Source: Caldisericota bacterium
GTDB lineage: Bacteria; Caldisericota; JANLFM01
Length of the DNA stretch: 53,079 bases
Direction: 5' to 3'
NCBI GenBank assembly: GCA_024655865.1
Contig: JANLFM010000012.1
Span: 1 to 53,079 of the forward strand
Shown here one piece after another: positions 1 to 16,148 of the stretch (the stretch's first letter is position 1; each line of letters starts with the position of its first letter). The notes under the pieces are model-generated. The model worked only from the letters and a program-made list of their open reading frames with translations. It was not told where the DNA came from and did no database searches. Made by a program: the position numbers and the translations under genes.

Positions 1-1923
1 CCAATCCTGGATGGAACTGGAAATTTCAATGGTTCCTTTGCCATGATCTCCGACATTTCCCGAATTAAACAGGTGGAAAAGGACTTCTACAATGCCTTAG
101 AGGAATTAAGAACGCTGGAATTTATTGTGAACAAGAGCCCAGCCGTGGCTTTCATCTGGAAACCTCAGAAGGGGTGGCCAGTTCAGTTCGTAACCGAGAA
201 CGTTTCCCAGTGGGGATATACGAAGGAGGAATTTGAGAGCAAGAGGGTTCTTTTTGCGGAAATTGTTCACCCTGATGATCTAGGACGAGTGAGCGAGGAA
301 GTGGCCCAATTTAGGAAAGAGGGGAGGAAGGAATACCGCCAGCACTATCGCATTTTGACCAAGGACGGACGAGTGCGCTGGGTGGACGATAGTACGTTTG
401 TGAGACGCGACCCCTCAGGCAAAGTGACCAGTTACCAAGGGATAGTCCTGGATGTCACAGAGCGAAAAATTGCAGAAAAAGAAGCAGAGGAAGCCAGACT
501 GCGCCTTCAGGCCTTTTTAGAGGCCAGCCCGGATTTGATTTACCTCAAAGACTTGAGCGGCAAAAATTTGCTGGTGAACTCTGCTTATGCTTACTACTTT
601 GGGAAAGATAAATCGGAGATAGAGGGAAGGAACGACAACGAGATCATGCCTCCTGACCTTGCAGAGCAGTGCGCGCTCAGCGACCAGGAAGTCCTCCATG
701 CCAATGCTCCGATTCGGGTTGAGGAAGCGATCCAAAATGAAAAAGGGCTGAGATCCTTTGACACCATCAAATTCCCTATTCCGGGAACAGACGGAAAAAT
801 CGTGGGAATTGGGGGTATCAGCCGGGATATTACTGAGAAGAAAAAAGTAGAGGAAAAATTGCAGGAAGCGGAGCGTAATTTGAGGGGCTTCCTTGAGGCC
901 CTGCAGGAAAGCGCAGTCCTCCTTGACCTGGAAGGTAAGGTGGTTTTTGCTAACAAAACCGCTTCCTGTCGAACTGGAATTCCGCTTGAGAAGCTTCTGG
1001 GGGCGAATCTCTATGAGATTTTGCCGCCACAGTTTAAAGACAGGTTTATAAAACAATGTGAACAGGTTATCAAATCAGGAAAGCCCTTGACTGAAGAGGA
1101 AACGCTTGGAGATAGATTTTTCCTTTTCCAGGTCTATCCCATGAAGGGTGAACAGGGTAGGGTAGAGCGCCTGGTAGTCCTTTCTATCGATATTACTGAG
1201 AGGAAAAGGATAGAAGAGGAAAAAGAAAAAGTCAGGAACAGTTTGATCTACTCCGTATCCCACGACCTGAAAACTCCCCTTATGGTGATGCAAGCATCGC
1301 TGGACCTTCTTTTAAATTTAGATGCCAGGGGGAAAAGCGAAAAGTTCCTGGAATACGAGCCTCTCTGGAGGAGTAACCTGAACAGGCTCAAAAGCCTGGT
1401 AGATAATTTGCTTATCAGTCAGAAAGCCCTGATTTCCAGTGTTCCTGTTTCCCTTAAAAGCGTGGATGCAAAGGATGTTCTGAATAAAGCAATCTCGGAG
1501 TTGAGCAATTTTGCCAGCGCGGCGAGCGTCAGCATAGAAACCCAAATGCCCGAGGAACCACTATTCTGGGAAATGGACGAGGAACTCATAGCTCGTGCTT
1601 TAGAGAACCTCCTTTCAAACGCCATTAAATTTTCCCCTAAAGGGAAGAAGGTAATTGTGGGTGTGGAAAGGCAAGGAAAGCAGCTGGTTTTCTGGGTGGA
1701 GGATAGAGGTCCAGGAATACCGGAAGAGGAGATGGAGGAGCTCTTTCAGCCTTTCAAAAGGTCAAGTCTGGCAGAAAAAAGGAGAATTCCGGGAACCGGA
1801 CTGGGCCTTTTCGTATCCCGCAGGCTGGTGGAAGCTCACGGAGGGACCCTTCTCCTGGAAAGTACGCCTGAAAAAGGAACTAAAGCCACAATTGCAATCC
1901 CTACAAGAAAGAACGCCTCGTAG
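1..1923 (+). CDS. PAS-domain sensor histidine kinase (5' end outside window)
   Basis: The frame is open from base 1, and the residues before the first ATG (43) read like the end of another PAS domain, so the gene begins upstream of the window. Three more PAS/PAC modules follow (roughly visible residues 35-155, 165-285, 290-400), each ending in a D-I/V-T-E-R/K-type linker. Then come a HisKA domain with the phospho-acceptor in SVSHDLKTP and a HATPase domain with N box (ENLLSNAIKFSP), G1 (DRGPGIP) and G2 (GTGLGLF). No membrane segment is visible, so this part looks cytosolic. It should autophosphorylate on His and pass phosphate to a response regulator, but no receiver gene is present in the window. 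The stop codon is 39 bases before the flavodoxin ATG, so the two may be co-transcribed. Confidence 0.93.
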   Translation, partial: PILDGTGNFNGSFAMISDISRIKQVEKDFYNALEELRTLEFIVNKSPAVAFIWKPQKGWPVQFVTENVSQWGYTKEEFESKRVLFAEIVHPDDLGRVSEEVAQFRKEGRKEYRQHYRILTKDGRVRWVDDSTFVRRDPSGKVTSYQGIVLDVTERKIAEKEAEEARLRLQAFLEASPDLIYLKDLSGKNLLVNSAYAYYFGKDKSEIEGRNDNEIMPPDLAEQCALSDQEVLHANAPIRVEEAIQNEKGLRSFDTIKFPIPGTDGKIVGIGGISRDITEKKKVEEKLQEAERNLRGFLEALQESAVLLDLEGKVVFANKTASCRTGIPLEKLLGANLYEILPPQFKDRFIKQCEQVIKSGKPLTEEETLGDRFFLFQVYPMKGEQGRVERLVVLSIDITERKRIEEEKEKVRNSLIYSVSHDLKTPLMVMQASLDLLLNLDARGKSEKFLEYEPLWRSNLNRLKSLVDNLLISQKALISSVPVSLKSVDAKDVLNKAISELSNFASAASVSIETQMPEEPLFWEMDEELIARALENLLSNAIKFSPKGKKVIVGVERQGKQLVFWVEDRGPGIPEEEMEELFQPFKRSSLAEKRRIPGTGLGLFVSRRLVEAHGGTLLLESTPEKGTKATIAIPTRKNAS

Positions 1924-1962
1924 GTGAATCCTTCAGAGTTGGCAAATACAAAGGAGGGAAAA

Positions 1963-2451
1963 ATGGCAGCCATTGTTTATTATTCCAGAACTGGCTCCAC
2001 CAGGGAGCACGCTAAATGCCTCAGGGAAATCACCGGAGGGGAACTTATTGAGCTTGAGGAAATAAAAGCCAGAAAAACAAGCGGGCAGTGTGCGATTCAG
2101 GCTCTTCTTGGAATTTGCTCAGCATTAAAAAACGCTGATTTTGACCTTTCTCCATTTGAGACGATTATTCTGATGACCCCTATTTACGCCTGGAACCCAT
2201 CGCCAGCCTTAAACACTTTCCTGAAAAAAGCCGATTTAAGAGGGAAGAAGGTCTACTTAGTAACGTTGGGCGAGGATCCTAATTCCCATAAGAAGCCCAT
2301 CGAAAAAATTAAAGCTAAGGTGGAAAAAAAGGGAGGAATCTTTCTTGGGGCAAGCTCGTTCAAAGGGGCGAACATGTTCAAGGGGACATTCCGCTTTACC
2401 GAAGAAGAGCTGAAGCGAAATTGCCAAGAAATTGCGAAAAAAATTGCCTGA
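1963..2451 (+). CDS. Flavodoxin-family protein
   Basis: About 162 residues. The N-terminus IVYYSRTGSTREHA is the FMN phosphate-binding loop of flavodoxins; the rest fits a single alpha/beta flavodoxin fold, with LMTPIYAWNPSPA as the second flavin loop. The ATG at 1963 is chosen because a strong ribosome site, AAGGAGG, lies at 1951-1957. A GTG at 1924 in the same frame, directly after the kinase stop, has no such site. The protein probably carries electrons or senses redox state; the partner is unknown. The neighbouring PAS kinase could be functionally linked, but that is only positional inference. Confidence 0.82.
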   Translation: MAAIVYYSRTGSTREHAKCLREITGGELIELEEIKARKTSGQCAIQALLGICSALKNADFDLSPFETIILMTPIYAWNPSPALNTFLKKADLRGKKVYLVTLGEDPNSHKKPIEKIKAKVEKKGGIFLGASSFKGANMFKGTFRFTEEELKRNCQEIAKKIA

Positions 2452-2579
2452 AGGCTTTTAGACCAGGGCATTCCATGTACTTTAGTTTTTGAGCGCCCAA
2501 AAATTGGGGTTTTCAAAAGGGCAAAAGGGGCTTAGGTTTTTCAAGAATTAAGAGGGAAGAAAAGAAAGCCGAAAATTCC

Positions 2580-2625
2580 GCATATCTAATTTCGCAAAAT
2601 GTAACTTTTCCGAAATAAGATATGC
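2580..2625. other. dif-like inverted repeat (candidate Xer recombination site)
   Basis: Two 20-base arms (2580-2599 and 2606-2625) form an inverted repeat with 18 of 20 positions matching, around a 6-base centre TGTAAC (2600-2605). The inner part, ATTTCGCAAAA (2589-2599), TGTAAC, TTTTCCGAAAT (2606-2616), has exactly the 11-6-11 layout of dif sites. It ends 18 bases before the ATG of a Xer-type recombinase. Adjacent gene-plus-site layouts are known for XerS/difSL and XerH/difH. A regulatory operator for the recombinase gene is the main alternative. Confidence 0.6.
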
Positions 2626-2643
2626 TATTATATTGGGGAGGGA

Positions 2644-3579
2644 ATGGAGAGCTATATCAGGCAGTTTTTGGAACATCTGGAAATTGAGAAGGGCTACTCC
2701 CCGGGAACTGTGGAGGCCTACGCTACACATCTCTACCGCTTCGTGCAATGGCTCAGGGACAATTTTCCCGAGGTGGATCATCCCGAAAAAATCACTCTGG
2801 AACACGTGCACCAATTTCGCCTTTATCTTTCCCATCTTAAAAATTCAGAAGGTAAACATTTAAAAAAGGTCACGCAGGCTTATTACATCATCACCTTACG
2901 CACCTTCCTGCGTTATCTTATGGTGAACCGCCAGATGCAGGTTCTCTCTCCAGATCGCATTGACTTGCCTAAAATTGGAGAGCGCATCGTAAACTTCCTT
3001 ACTTTAGATCAGGTGGAGCTCCTCTTGAGGGCTCCTGATACTTCTACTCTTTTGGGCCTGCGCGATCGGGCTATTTTAGAGCTTCTCTTTTCCACCGGGC
3101 TGAGAGTCTCAGAGCTTGTGATCCTGAATCGGGACCAGGTCTCCCTGGAACGCAAGGAATTTGGAGTGATCGGGAAAGGAGGAAAAGCCAGGGTGGTTTT
3201 CCTCTCCGATAGTGCCTGTTTCTGGCTTTCCCAGTACCTGGATAAGAGGACTGACAATCTTAAACCTCTATTTATCGGTATACCGGGAAAAGGAAGGCGT
3301 TCCCGTGATGGCCGTCTCACGGCGCGATCCGTGGAATTGATTGTGGATCGTTATGCCCGTCAGGTAAACTTGCCCTTCAACGTCACCCCGCACACTTTGA
3401 GGCATTCTTTCGCTACCGATTTGATGATCGCGGGTGCGGACATACGCGCTGTCCAGGAGATGCTGGGACACTCTTCCATTAGAACGACCCAGGTTTACAC
3501 TCACGTCACTGACAGACAGTTAAAGGAAGTTTATCGAACTTATCACGGGCGCTCAAAAAAGAGGGAGACTCCAAAATAA
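2644..3579 (+). CDS. xerD: Tyrosine recombinase, XerC/XerD type
   Basis: 311 residues, a normal length for Xer proteins. The N-terminal SAM-like core-binding domain (about 1-95) is followed by the catalytic domain. All catalytic residues are visible: Arg in STGLRVSEL, the beta-hairpin Lys in IGKGGKARV, HTLRHSF (His and Arg), LGHSS (His) and the nucleophile Tyr in TTQVYTHV. It should resolve chromosome dimers at dif with a partner or alone. The start ATG has a GGGGAGGG ribosome site directly upstream. A dif-like inverted repeat occupies 2580-2625, which suggests a self-contained recombinase/site pair. XerC versus XerD cannot be decided from sequence alone. Confidence 0.9.
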   Translation: MESYIRQFLEHLEIEKGYSPGTVEAYATHLYRFVQWLRDNFPEVDHPEKITLEHVHQFRLYLSHLKNSEGKHLKKVTQAYYIITLRTFLRYLMVNRQMQVLSPDRIDLPKIGERIVNFLTLDQVELLLRAPDTSTLLGLRDRAILELLFSTGLRVSELVILNRDQVSLERKEFGVIGKGGKARVVFLSDSACFWLSQYLDKRTDNLKPLFIGIPGKGRRSRDGRLTARSVELIVDRYARQVNLPFNVTPHTLRHSFATDLMIAGADIRAVQEMLGHSSIRTTQVYTHVTDRQLKEVYRTYHGRSKKRETPK

Positions 3580-8491: not shown

Positions 8492-9841
8492 TTATCCCTC
8501 TTTTCCTGTAATGCGCCGGGCGATCTCCCTTGCGGCAACCACCCCTGAAGCAGAAGCTTGGATCAAACCGCGAGAAACTCCCGCTCCATCTCCAATGTTA
8601 AAGAGATTTTGTATCTCGGTTTCCAGGACAGAATTCAATTTAGGACGCGATGAGTAGAATTTCACCTCCACCCCATAAAGGAGAGTGTGGCGGGAAGCTA
8701 ATCCCGGAGCGAGGAAATCAATCGCTTTAATCATCTCCAGAATATCAGTAAGGTACCTGTACGGGAGAACGAAGGAGAGGTCTCCCGGAGTAGCCTCTTT
8801 CAGGGTGGGTGTGACAATCCCGTGGGCGATTCTGTCCTTAGTGGAGCGGCGCCCGGATTCTAAGTCCCCCAACCTCTGGATGATCACGGTTCCTCCAAGG
8901 AGATTTGCCAGGCGCGCAATATAACGGCCGTAGGTTATAGGTTCTTTGAAGGGGTCGGTAAAACGGGTGGAAACCAGAATAGCGAAGTTCGAGTTCTCGG
9001 TCTTGCGGTTAGCATAGCTGTGGCCGTTGACCGTTATTATCCCCTCCGAGGATTCCATGGCCACCACTCCGTACGGGCACATGCAGAAGGTACGTACCCG
9101 ATCATCGAACGACTTGCTAAAGTACTCTAACTTAGCCTCAAAGGAAACACTGGTTAAGGGTTCAAGGACAGCTGCAGGAACCTCAACCCTAACTCCCACA
9201 TCTACCGGGTTTCGCGCCATAGTCAAATTCAAGCGGCGGCATTCCTCTACCCACCAGGCTGCGCCCTCTCTCCCGGGTGCCACGACCAGAAAATCGCTTT
9301 CAATGGCTTCACCATCAGCGATCTCCACACCCTTGGCTTTGCCGTTTTCGGTGAGAATTTTTGTTACCTGGACACCGGTGCGGATTTCCACCTTCTCTTT
9401 GAGGTAATCACGGAACCCTCTGAGGATGTTTTTGCAGTTATCAGTACCCAGGTGTCTGATACGTGAGGGGATAAAGCGCAAGCTTGCCAGGGCTGCTTTC
9501 CGGGAAAGATTGCTTAATTCATCTTCATTTGTGCCATAAATTGTGGAGGGGGCCCCAAATTCAAGATAGATTTGATCCACATAATGGATCAGGCTAAGAG
9601 CTTCTTCCAGTCCTCGAAAATCCCTGAGGTACCCTCCGATCTCAGGGGACAAGGTTAACTTTCCATCGGAGAAAGCCCCCGCCCCGCCCCAACCGGAGAT
9701 TAAGGAGGTTCTCTCGTCTATCTCCTTACCCTTTTCCAAAAGAAGGACGTTTATGGGCAAATTGGCCCTGGTCAACTCAATAGCGGTAAAGATTCCAGCT
9801 GGGCCAGCACCGACAATTATTAGATCATATTTTTTACTCAT
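8492..9841 (-). CDS. FAD-dependent dehydrogenase (COG2509 type)
   Basis: 449 residues. The N-terminal dinucleotide-binding motif IVGAGPAGIFTAIEL binds FAD, followed by SGWGGAGAFSDGKL typical of COG2509 dehydrogenases. The C-terminal LFNIGDGAGVSRGLIQASASG closes the flavin site. The physiological substrate is unknown; the protein is predicted to be a soluble flavoprotein oxidoreductase. It is the first protein gene of a unit leading into purA, and tRNA-Pro lies 33 bases upstream on the same strand. Confidence 0.88.
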   Translation of the reverse strand: MSKKYDLIIVGAGPAGIFTAIELTRANLPINVLLLEKGKEIDERTSLISGWGGAGAFSDGKLTLSPEIGGYLRDFRGLEEALSLIHYVDQIYLEFGAPSTIYGTNEDELSNLSRKAALASLRFIPSRIRHLGTDNCKNILRGFRDYLKEKVEIRTGVQVTKILTENGKAKGVEIADGEAIESDFLVVAPGREGAAWWVEECRRLNLTMARNPVDVGVRVEVPAAVLEPLTSVSFEAKLEYFSKSFDDRVRTFCMCPYGVVAMESSEGIITVNGHSYANRKTENSNFAILVSTRFTDPFKEPITYGRYIARLANLLGGTVIIQRLGDLESGRRSTKDRIAHGIVTPTLKEATPGDLSFVLPYRYLTDILEMIKAIDFLAPGLASRHTLLYGVEVKFYSSRPKLNSVLETEIQNLFNIGDGAGVSRGLIQASASGVVAAREIARRITGKEG

Positions 9842-9874
9842 TTTTGCCTGTCATTCCTGTCTTAGAAAATTAAA

Positions 9875-9952
<78 letters not shown>

Positions 9953-9971
9953 AACCAAAAATATGTTAGCA

Positions 9972-11303
9972 TTAAGGTTTTTTTCCTGCAAGGGTTTTGC
10001 GCTTTGAGCGCAGCTCAAAGAAAATCGGGGTCCCAATCAGACCAAGCCTGCTAATCAGTTGGTTTTTTAAGTAGCGTTCATAGGAGAAGTGTAGATTTTC
10101 CGCCTTGTTCACAAAAAAGAGGAAGACTGGCGGAGCTACTGACTTCTGGGTCACATAATATATCCGAAACTCCTTCCCTGGAGCCTGAGGCGGAGGGTGC
10201 GCCAGGGTAATCTCGGCAATCATTTTATTCAATAGGCTGGTGGCAAAGTGCCTCCGGTAACTGGAAAGAACTGCCACCAGCAAAGGCGTTAACTTATCTA
10301 AATTCATTCCGCTCTTTGCGGAAATAAAGATGGACTCCGCAAACGCCAAAAAATCAAGTTCTTTGGCCATGTATTCCTTGAATTGCGTCACTTTTTTAGG
10401 ATTAAAATCCACGAGATCACACTTATTCACCGCCACGATACAGGCCTTCTTTGCTTCCTGGATCATACCCGCTATTTTCCGATCCTGGGCCATGATTCCT
10501 TCCTCAGCGGAAATTACAAGAAGTGCCAGGTCGCACCTGGAGATGGCTTCCTGGGCGCGTAAATTACTCAAATATTCTAAATCCGTACTGATTTTGCTTT
10601 TCTTTTTGATCCCCGCTGTGTCAATTAAGAGAAAGATACCGTTAGGTGTTTCCCAGTAAGTGTCGATGGCATCCCGGGTAGTTCCCGGAATTTCGCTCAC
10701 GATCACCCTCTCTTGTCCTAAAAGGGCGTTGAGCAAGGCGGATTTGCCAACGTTCGGGCGCCCCACGATAGCTACCTTCCCAACCAATCTCCTTGTCGGG
10801 GGGATGGCCTCAGGCAGGCGCTGAGATATTTCATCAAGAAGTTCGCCTATATTAAAACCGTTCAGCCCGGATACCGGAATGGGGTCTCCCCAGCCTAAGG
10901 AGTAGAAGGCTAAAGCGGTGTTCGCCTGCAATATGGTATCCACTTTATTGGCAACCAGGATCACCGGTTTTCTGCTTTCTCGAACTATCCGTGAAACCTC
11001 CTGGTCTAAGGGCATAACTCCCTCTCTGGCATCCAAGACGAAAAGGATCAGGTCTACTTCCCTCATCATATTGAGCAGGATCTCCTGGGCTTTGACTTTG
11101 ACGGCATCGGAAGCATCCAGATCTAGCCCTCCGGAATCAATTAAAAGAAAGTGCTTATCGTTCCATTCTACCTCAGCCTGAAGCAAATCCCTGGTCACTC
11201 CCGGTTCCTCATGCACGATGGACTTCCGGGAGCGCACAATGCGGTTGAAAAGGGCGGACTTACCTACGTTGGGTCTTCCTACGATCAGGACCTTTGGGAG
11301 CAC
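9972..11303 (-). CDS. der: Ribosome-assembly GTPase Der (EngA)
   Basis: 443 residues with two tandem G domains and a C-terminal KH-like domain. The P-loops are GRPNVGKSALFN (about 8) and GRPNVGKSALLN (about 180); switch motifs DSGG and DTAG and the NKVD and NKCD specificity motifs are visible. It is needed for 50S subunit assembly. It starts with GTG at 11303, immediately after the cmk stop codon, as in many bacteria where cmk and der are linked. Confidence 0.97.
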   Translation of the reverse strand: MLPKVLIVGRPNVGKSALFNRIVRSRKSIVHEEPGVTRDLLQAEVEWNDKHFLLIDSGGLDLDASDAVKVKAQEILLNMMREVDLILFVLDAREGVMPLDQEVSRIVRESRKPVILVANKVDTILQANTALAFYSLGWGDPIPVSGLNGFNIGELLDEISQRLPEAIPPTRRLVGKVAIVGRPNVGKSALLNALLGQERVIVSEIPGTTRDAIDTYWETPNGIFLLIDTAGIKKKSKISTDLEYLSNLRAQEAISRCDLALLVISAEEGIMAQDRKIAGMIQEAKKACIVAVNKCDLVDFNPKKVTQFKEYMAKELDFLAFAESIFISAKSGMNLDKLTPLLVAVLSSYRRHFATSLLNKMIAEITLAHPPPQAPGKEFRIYYVTQKSVAPPVFLFFVNKAENLHFSYERYLKNQLISRLGLIGTPIFFELRSKRKTLAGKKP

Positions 11304-11969
11304 TTAGCTCATCCTTTCCTCAATCAGTTTGATTACCAGGTCAATCGTCTCGTCCAGGCTCAGAGAGGAAGTGTCAATGATTACGGCGTCTTCGGCTGGG
11401 CGTGTAGGAGCGACGTCTCGCGTGGAGTCAATGGAATCACGCAGACGGATGTTTTCTTCCGCTTCCGCATCCGATCTAGGAAAAGGAAGCCTCTTATTCT
11501 GAGCAGCTCTGCGCTGTGCACGGATTTCTTCCCGAGCTACAAGAAAAATTTTCACCTGAGCCTCCGGAAAAACCACTGTCCCTATGTCTCGGCCTTCCAC
11601 TACGATCTTTTTCCCGGTGGCATACTCCCTGAGAAAACTATTCACTTTCTCTCTCACAACAGGAATCTTGGCTACCTCCGAGACGTACTTCTCTATCTCG
11701 GGAGAACGGAGGAGCTCTGTAACCACTACCCCCTCAAGGTAGTGGTCTGGGGGACGGTAATCAAAACGGAGCCCTACCAACTCTCTTTTTAGGGCGTATT
11801 CATCCTTCCAGTTAATGCGATTCTTCAAGAAATAAAGGGTCACAAAGCGATAGAAGGAACCGGAATCCAATCGCTCCCAGGAGAAATGACGAGCAACAGC
11901 AATCGCAATGGTGCTCTTGCCTGAGGCCGCAAGCCCGTCAATAGCTACCACAAATTGCTGGAAATTCAC
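11304..11969 (-). CDS. cmk: Cytidylate kinase
   Basis: 221 residues. The P-loop is GLAASGKSTIA, and GRDIGTVVFPEA and the lid RLRDSIDSTRDVAP are family signatures. It phosphorylates CMP and dCMP with ATP. The start GTG overlaps the stop of the preceding small gene (GTGA), so translation is coupled; der follows directly. Confidence 0.97.
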   Translation of the reverse strand: MNFQQFVVAIDGLAASGKSTIAIAVARHFSWERLDSGSFYRFVTLYFLKNRINWKDEYALKRELVGLRFDYRPPDHYLEGVVVTELLRSPEIEKYVSEVAKIPVVREKVNSFLREYATGKKIVVEGRDIGTVVFPEAQVKIFLVAREEIRAQRRAAQNKRLPFPRSDAEAEENIRLRDSIDSTRDVAPTRPAEDAVIIDTSSLSLDETIDLVIKLIEERMS

Positions 11970-15499: not shown

Positions 15500-15508
15500 A
15501 GAATTCTT
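15499..15508. promoter_or_regulatory. AAGAATTCTT palindrome between rodZ and lexA
   Basis: A perfect 10-bp palindrome touching the rodZ -35 box and lying 9 bases before the lexA -35 box. It is in a good place for an operator, but it does not match the GAAC-N4-GTTC Gram-positive LexA box, so its role is a guess. Confidence 0.3.
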
Positions 15509-15557: not shown

Positions 15558-16148
15558 ATGGAAAAATTAACTGAAATCCAGCAAAAAATACTTCAATTTC
15601 TAACGCAGAAGGTCTCAAGGGGGCAAGGAGTGCCTTCTGTGCGAGAGATCTGTAATGCTGTGGGTCTTAGATCCACATCCTCAGTTCACGCACAACTGGC
15701 GATGCTGGAAAGGAAGGGTTACATCAGGAGGACTCCTTTCAAAAGTCGATCTATCGAGGTTATAGGAATTTCCAGCTCCGTTCCCAGGGTCCCCCTGGTT
15801 GGCAGAGTAAGGGCTGGGCAACCCAACCTTGCTCAAGAGGAGTGGATTGGCTTTTTTCCCTTACCCGAAGTCTTCCGAGGGGCCGATTGTTTTGTTCTCA
15901 ATGTAAAGGGAGACTCCATGGTGGAGGCGGGGATTCAAGAGGGGGACTACGTGATTGTGCGCCGGCAAGCGCAGGCGGAAAATGGAGATATCGTGGTGGC
16001 TTTAATTGATGATGAGGCCACGATCAAAAGGTTTAAAAAATCTCAGGCTGAAATTGTGCTTGAGCCCGCAAATCCTAAATATCAACCCATCGTTACAAAG
16101 GATGTGCTCATCCTGGGCAAGGTAATTGGCCTTTTCCGCATCATTTAG
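15558..16148 (+). CDS. lexA: LexA repressor
   Basis: 196 residues. N-terminal winged helix (about 1-65, PSVREICNAVGLRSTSSVH), the self-cleavage Ala-Gly in VRAGQP (about 88-93), and the catalytic dyad Ser in GDSM and Lys in ATIKRF. It represses SOS genes until RecA promotes autocleavage. The gene is divergent from rodZ, has a near-leaderless promoter, and its 3' end overlaps the convergent ynbB gene by 8 bases. No canonical LexA box was found before it, so the operator in this lineage may differ. Confidence 0.96.
   Translation: MEKLTEIQQKILQFLTQKVSRGQGVPSVREICNAVGLRSTSSVHAQLAMLERKGYIRRTPFKSRSIEVIGISSSVPRVPLVGRVRAGQPNLAQEEWIGFFPLPEVFRGADCFVLNVKGDSMVEAGIQEGDYVIVRRQAQAENGDIVVALIDDEATIKRFKKSQAEIVLEPANPKYQPIVTKDVLILGKVIGLFRII

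Follow-up and report, generated by a model that had tools for sequence, protein, structure and literature searches.

A candidate dif site beside a single Xer recombinase gene in a Caldisericota bacterium

The xer locus and its inverted repeat

The window, a stretch of 53,079 nucleotides from a Caldisericota bacterium, carries the gene of a 311-residue tyrosine recombinase (xer) preceded by an inverted repeat. Its arms, GCATATCTAATTTCGCAAAA (2580-2599) and TTTTCCGAAATAAGATATGC (2606-2625), are complementary at 18 of 20 positions and flank the centre TGTAAC (2600-2605). The repeat ends 18 bases 5' of the xer ATG at 2644, exactly where a preliminary description of this DNA had placed it, and its inner 28 bases form the predicted dif core, ATTTCGCAAAA TGTAAC TTTTCCGAAAT, with 27 bases between the core and the xer start (Table 1). 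The left arm of the core also agrees with the XerC arm of E. coli. The analysis was computational throughout.

Table 1. Features of the locus and additional recombinase genes of the same genome (G000, assembly of the window genome; G001, Caldisericota bacterium A05DMB09; R1, site profile described in the text)
Feature	Position	Strand	Evidence
Predicted dif core, 11-6-11	2589..2616	+	Single copy; 28/28 in G001; sole R1 match in G000 and G001
Putative left 11-bp recombinase-binding arm	2589..2599	+	Agrees with the Patescibacteria arm ATGTCGCACAA
6-bp central region TGTAAC, putative strand-exchange region	2600..2605	+	Patescibacteria counterpart mostly TGTATC
Putative right 11-bp recombinase-binding arm	2606..2616	+	10/11 complementary to the left arm
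Outer left arm, species-specific repeat extension	2580..2588	+	Not kept in G001
Outer right arm, species-specific repeat extension	2617..2625	+	Not kept in G001
Putative extended -10 TGCTATTAT of the xer promoter, just downstream of the dif core	2623..2631	+	G001 has TG-n-TATTAT at this position
xer, 311-aa tyrosine recombinase	2644..3579	+	NCBIfam/Pfam, alignment, tree
Cumulative GC skew maximum; genes to the left on +, to the right almost all on -	2716	.
Extra XerC/D-like genes, G000	C22:168871-169671, C55:1743-2552, C38:1050-1847, C6:25809-26609
Extra XerC/D-like fragments, G000	C42:161-757, C32:5017-5142

The window holds no further 20-6-20 repeat at 17 or more of 20 matches, and 20 first-order Markov shuffles of it produced none at 18 or more. 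Inner 11-6-11 units at 10 of 11 matches number three in the window against 0.75 per shuffle, so that symmetry by itself is not rare and was dropped as proof for the 28-mer; the significance of the 11-6-11 unit lies in its conservation and position. Across the whole assembly (1.82 Mb, 63 contigs), the 28-mer has one match at up to three mismatches, which bears out the single copy named as a check in the preliminary description. Neither this search nor the R1 profile gave a second dif-like site in G000; a second, better dif was what the description had considered adverse.

Residues R154, K178, H250, R253, H276 and Y285 of the xer product, which we take to be the catalytic set (R-K-H-R-H-Y), are all invariant in the alignment. 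Against the NCBIfam models, the protein scored 251.1 bits for XerD (cut-off 330) and 249.8 for XerC (cut-off 335), below both; it reached 135.7 bits for XerS (cut-off 267) and barely exceeded the cut-off of 220 for XerA_Arch, with 222.8 bits. Among solved chains compared by phmmer, E. coli XerD (1a0p) was the closest at 143.6 bits, followed by the archaeal chains 4a8e (122.1) and 5hxy (98.1); the XerH structure 5jjv gave 46 bits. The FtsK_gamma model was over its cut-off in all five family genomes, indicating an FtsK with a gamma domain.

An orthologous pair of XerC and XerD was not found in G000, which holds one such gene. Six further genes or fragments with an integrase domain are present (Table 1). 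The four full genes encode at most about 300 residues, share 74-81% DNA identity with one another and 28-30% identity with the xer product, and score 143-170 bits, against XerC/XerD cut-offs of 330-335. They resemble a repeated element, perhaps a mobile one not yet recognised, rather than partner XerC and XerD proteins, although a contribution from them is conceivable. As such genes exist, the absence of a second Xer gene, whose presence with its own site the preliminary description had counted as adverse, applies to the single-copy, terminus-linked type and not to these shorter, repeated XerC/D-like genes. The extra genes often lie near contig ends, and similar end fragments occur in G001.

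Conservation and chromosomal position of the site

In Caldisericota bacterium A05DMB09 (G001), of the same genus, an identical site (28/28) lies 55 bp before xer. The identity stops at most two bases beyond the 28-mer on each side. The xer proteins are 86% identical and the xer genes 73% identical in DNA, and the rest of the upstream spacer matches in 45 of 90 aligned columns. The chance of 28 unbroken matches is 0.002 at 80% identity per base and 4e-9 at 50%. The outer 9-base arms of the repeat are lost in G001; the conserved unit is therefore the 11-6-11, and the 20-6-20 repeat was rejected as the functional unit. The 28-base dif layout at 2589-2616 given in the preliminary description thus proved to be the conserved unit; its 20-base arms are present in the window and fail as a conserved element, as their outer nine bases differ within the genus. 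G001 has one exact copy and an overlapping match with three mismatches, which is produced by an adjacent half-site. An extra half-site, ATTTCACAAAA (L010, G001:C42:16005-16015), lies five bases before the full site.

Two genomes labelled Coprothermobacterota, from Lake Pavin (G002 and G004), which represent a second genus, have an xer 58% identical to that of the window. Their site, ATGTCGGATAA GTGCCA TTATCCGACAT, is present in a single copy, begins about 100-125 bp before the xer match and has arms that form a perfect repeat. Compared with the window site, both arms are altered together, and such compensating changes are expected if one protein binds both arms. The comparison of the region before xer proposed in the preliminary description thus yielded a site that is identical in G001 and changed but symmetric in G002/G004. 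An extra half-site, TTATCCGACAT, was seen 15 bases after the full site in both genomes (L012/L011). No full xer was found in G003, of the same family, perhaps owing to an assembly gap.

The same comparison bears on an RNA hairpin, which could terminate transcription of the flavodoxin-like gene upstream or form part of the xer leader. In its favour, the strand has a folding energy of -17.2 kcal/mol (z -2.3). It has, however, no terminator-like site and no Rfam match, and in G001 the outer stem is lost while the 28 bp are unchanged, including the centre that would be unpaired. With loop bases identical in relatives, the terminator or RNA element was rejected, and we regard it as very improbable.

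Downstream of the site, 13 genes keep their order in the window genome and three others, covering two genera, which indicates that the locus is part of the chromosomal core and not a recent insertion. This order, together with the single copy, weighs against the view that the repeat is the att site of a mobile element, or of an integrated element exploiting dif, with the present gene as its integrase. A tyrosine recombinase beside an inverted repeat is indeed the usual integrase/att layout, and the Xer is of a foreign, Patescibacteria type (see below); yet no second att was found, and the protein matches the XerC and XerD models along its length. An att site was accordingly disfavoured and has very little probability in our assessment. 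Unlike the order to the right of the site, which is kept between genera, the left neighbours (window 1-2602) are unmatched in G002/G004.

The cumulative GC skew of the window reaches its maximum about 100 bp from the site. As the contig end is 2.6 kb away, the left side of this switch rests on little sequence; G001 has 16 kb to the left of its site, and the skew maximum of its 155-kb contig, at 15506, is about 515 bp from the site at 16021-16048. Gene direction flips from + to - at xer in four of four genomes, with left(+,-)/right(+,-) counts of 2,0/3,49; 10,2/21,118; 29,6/10,22; and 6,1/2,12 (Fisher p = 0.007, 2e-6, 2e-5 and 0.003, respectively). G002 has a weak skew switch whose maximum is away from the site; its gene direction still flips. 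The skew and direction pattern at the site is terminus-like, the picture of a replication terminus as seen in a 63-contig assembly, and agrees with the location on a GC-skew switch that the preliminary description had put forward as a check.

The Patescibacteria connection and the putative xer promoter

A scan of genome contigs for Xer relatives, seeded by peptide patterns of the window family and hence uneven in its sampling, returned the family itself, one contig labelled Dehalococcoidia and otherwise Patescibacteria or entries named 'bacterium'. In a maximum-likelihood tree of 54 proteins, which contained no archaeal sequences, the window family is nested in the Patescibacteria Xer group (100/100), beside a group of Shapirobacteria, Levybacteria and Roizmanbacteria (100/97). 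The Xer proteins of other members of its own phylum are placed elsewhere. Transfer from a Patescibacteria-type donor would be the simplest reading. The Dehalococcoidia-labelled contig (L062), whose taxonomy we do not rely on because it is an 11-kb MAG contig, encodes an Xer 57% identical to that of the window, with the site GGTTCGCATAA CGGCTC TTTTGCGAACT 69 bp upstream; a second Xer-like gene follows shortly after the first (9057-10693 and 10632-11321).

In Shapirobacteria and their neighbours, a de novo search for inverted repeats, combined with a weight matrix, revealed ATGTCGCACAA TGTATC TTTTGCGACAT or a close variant of it in the vicinity of xer, mostly 0.3-0.6 kb upstream of the gene and up to 3.8 kb. 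The predicted Patescibacteria site, RTGTCGCACAA-TGTATC-TTTTGCGACAT, occurs at up to one mismatch in 84 of 193 sampled Patescibacteria genomes, once in 82 of these 84; a reversed control pattern had no match in the 193 genomes. In most of the sampled Patescibacteria, xer is more than 1.5 kb from the site. Three genomes were tested for position, and in two that are near-complete, with sampled skew, the site lies near the + to - skew switch (G212, site 752934; G087, site 620912). In the third, G070, which stands as a counter-example, the dif-like site does not coincide with a skew switch. G070 is a Shapirobacteria genome of roughly 0.7 Mb, and its 534-kb contig containing the site (G070:C3, L190-L216) has positive skew (0.05-0.36) throughout the readable part, with 72 kb masked. 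The open-licence literature searched gave no published Patescibacteria dif, which is weak evidence of absence.

Profile R1 combined 23 Patescibacteria sites with the dif sequences of E. coli and B. subtilis and included no site of the window family. Run on whole genomes at E<=10, it had one match in G000, at 2590-2615 (14.4 bits), and one in G001, at 16022-16047, both nearly full length. The E-values are modest (0.08), and within that limit the R1 match is an independent confirmation of the predicted dif. R1 did not find the G002/G004 site. Its matches in one further genome and in the phylum's other members were weak and partial, with the exception of one weak full-length match (10 bits) in G055. 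Xer and its site seem to have come into the lineage jointly, from a source of Patescibacteria type.

No -35/-10 pair upstream of xer passed a consensus scan, so the xer promoter in Table 1 is a putative one. The site of G002/G004 and L062 begins 5-6 bases downstream of a -10-like hexamer; judged by eye, the TTGNCA-17-hexamer arrangement is promoter-like. Among 9-mers in the 200 bp upstream of Patescibacteria xer genes, a dif half-site, GTCGCACAA, shows the strongest enrichment, and GTCGTACAA is among the next. One or the other lies within 200 bp upstream in 30 of 76 Patescibacteria xer genes (0.2 expected), and 15 of the 23 half-site genomes tested also carry a full site. Half-sites of the form GTCG[CT]ACAA (e.g. 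L081, L091, L113, L135) sometimes stand directly against TATAAT. The natural reading of such half-sites would be as operators, suggesting that Xer may regulate its own gene in Patescibacteria, and the full dif of the window lineage would then serve as both dif and operator. Since the site adjoins the putative xer promoter, its occupation by Xer may also dampen xer transcription, to which we assign roughly an even chance.

These promoter data raise the possibility that the palindrome is an operator only, through which Xer or another dimeric regulator controls xer, the true dif lying elsewhere. The conserved extended -10 next to the site, the spacing to the hexamers in G002/G004 and L062, and the half-site excess before Patescibacteria xer genes, with the full site elsewhere in 15 of 23 genomes, would all fit. 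An operator alone, however, leaves unexplained the exact 28-bp dif layout, the location at the switch of skew and gene direction and the agreement with Patescibacteria sites that are single-copy and for the most part remote from xer, and G000 has no second dif-like site. We consider this restricted function unlikely; the operator and dif roles are compatible with each other.

Proposed function and comparison with known systems

We conclude that 2589-2616 is very probably the dif of a single-Xer system and that 2644-3579 encodes the recombinase acting on it. The self-contained dif/Xer module envisaged in the preliminary description is thereby supported by copy number, position, conservation and profile; the Patescibacteria type of both protein and site had escaped it. 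What the sequence data establish is the layout of the site, its single copy, its conservation and its terminus-like position, together with the catalytic residues of Xer and the presence of FtsK. Two Xer monomers would bind the two 11-bp arms, a single Xer thus serving both, and two such sites would pair once a chromosome dimer forms. FtsK, through its gamma domain, would activate the paired sites at the septum, and strand exchange, with cleavage presumably where the arms meet the 6-bp centre, would yield monomers.

The locus offers a dif/Xer pair that can be tested at once in a lineage where none has been described, and it points to a predicted dif in Patescibacteria. Of more interest than the window site itself are three leads: the Patescibacteria site, the half-sites and the apparent transfer. 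Half-sites in xer promoters would amount to a simple feedback loop, in which the amount of recombinase is tied to its own site. Passage of an Xer between phyla along with its site would suggest that chromosome-resolution systems are replaceable as a unit. Taken together, a Patescibacteria-type single-recombinase module may have moved into the Caldisericota/Coprothermobacterota lineage as its only chromosome-resolution system, with Xer controlling itself through a dif or half-site in the xer promoter across both groups; we offer this combined proposal tentatively, at somewhat below an even chance.

The window system resembles XerCD/dif of E. coli and B. subtilis in its 28-bp site at a skew switch and its FtsK with a gamma domain, and its left arm and the first part of its centre resemble E. 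coli dif. Unlike XerCD/dif, it has one protein equidistant from the XerC and XerD models and nearly symmetric arms. XerS and XerH are proteins of about 355 residues with atypical sites, difSL being 31 bp long with an 11-bp centre, whereas the window combines an Xer of 311 residues with a canonical 11-6-11 site, the centre being 6 bp. In having its site next to a single recombinase gene, the window is like XerS/difSL of streptococci and lactococci and XerH/difH of Helicobacter and Campylobacter, where one recombinase works with a site beside its gene (PMC5357621). In some archaea, xerA and dif likewise form one module (PMC5357621). The archaeal XerA/dif of the Pyrococcus abyssi type shares one recombinase and a 28-bp site with the window, but the window host is bacterial and has an FtsK with a gamma domain, and its Xer is, by phmmer, closer to E. 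coli XerD than to the archaeal structures. XerL/dif of Legionellales is reported as a bacterial single-recombinase system where none had been known (PMC9765430); it belongs to another lineage and is set beside the window system by description. The Xer and site of Patescibacteria share with the window one Xer clade and the same site layout and profile, and differ in the distance between xer and the site, which is 27 bp in the window, about 0.3-0.6 kb in Shapirobacteria-like genomes and more than 1.5 kb in most of the sampled Patescibacteria.
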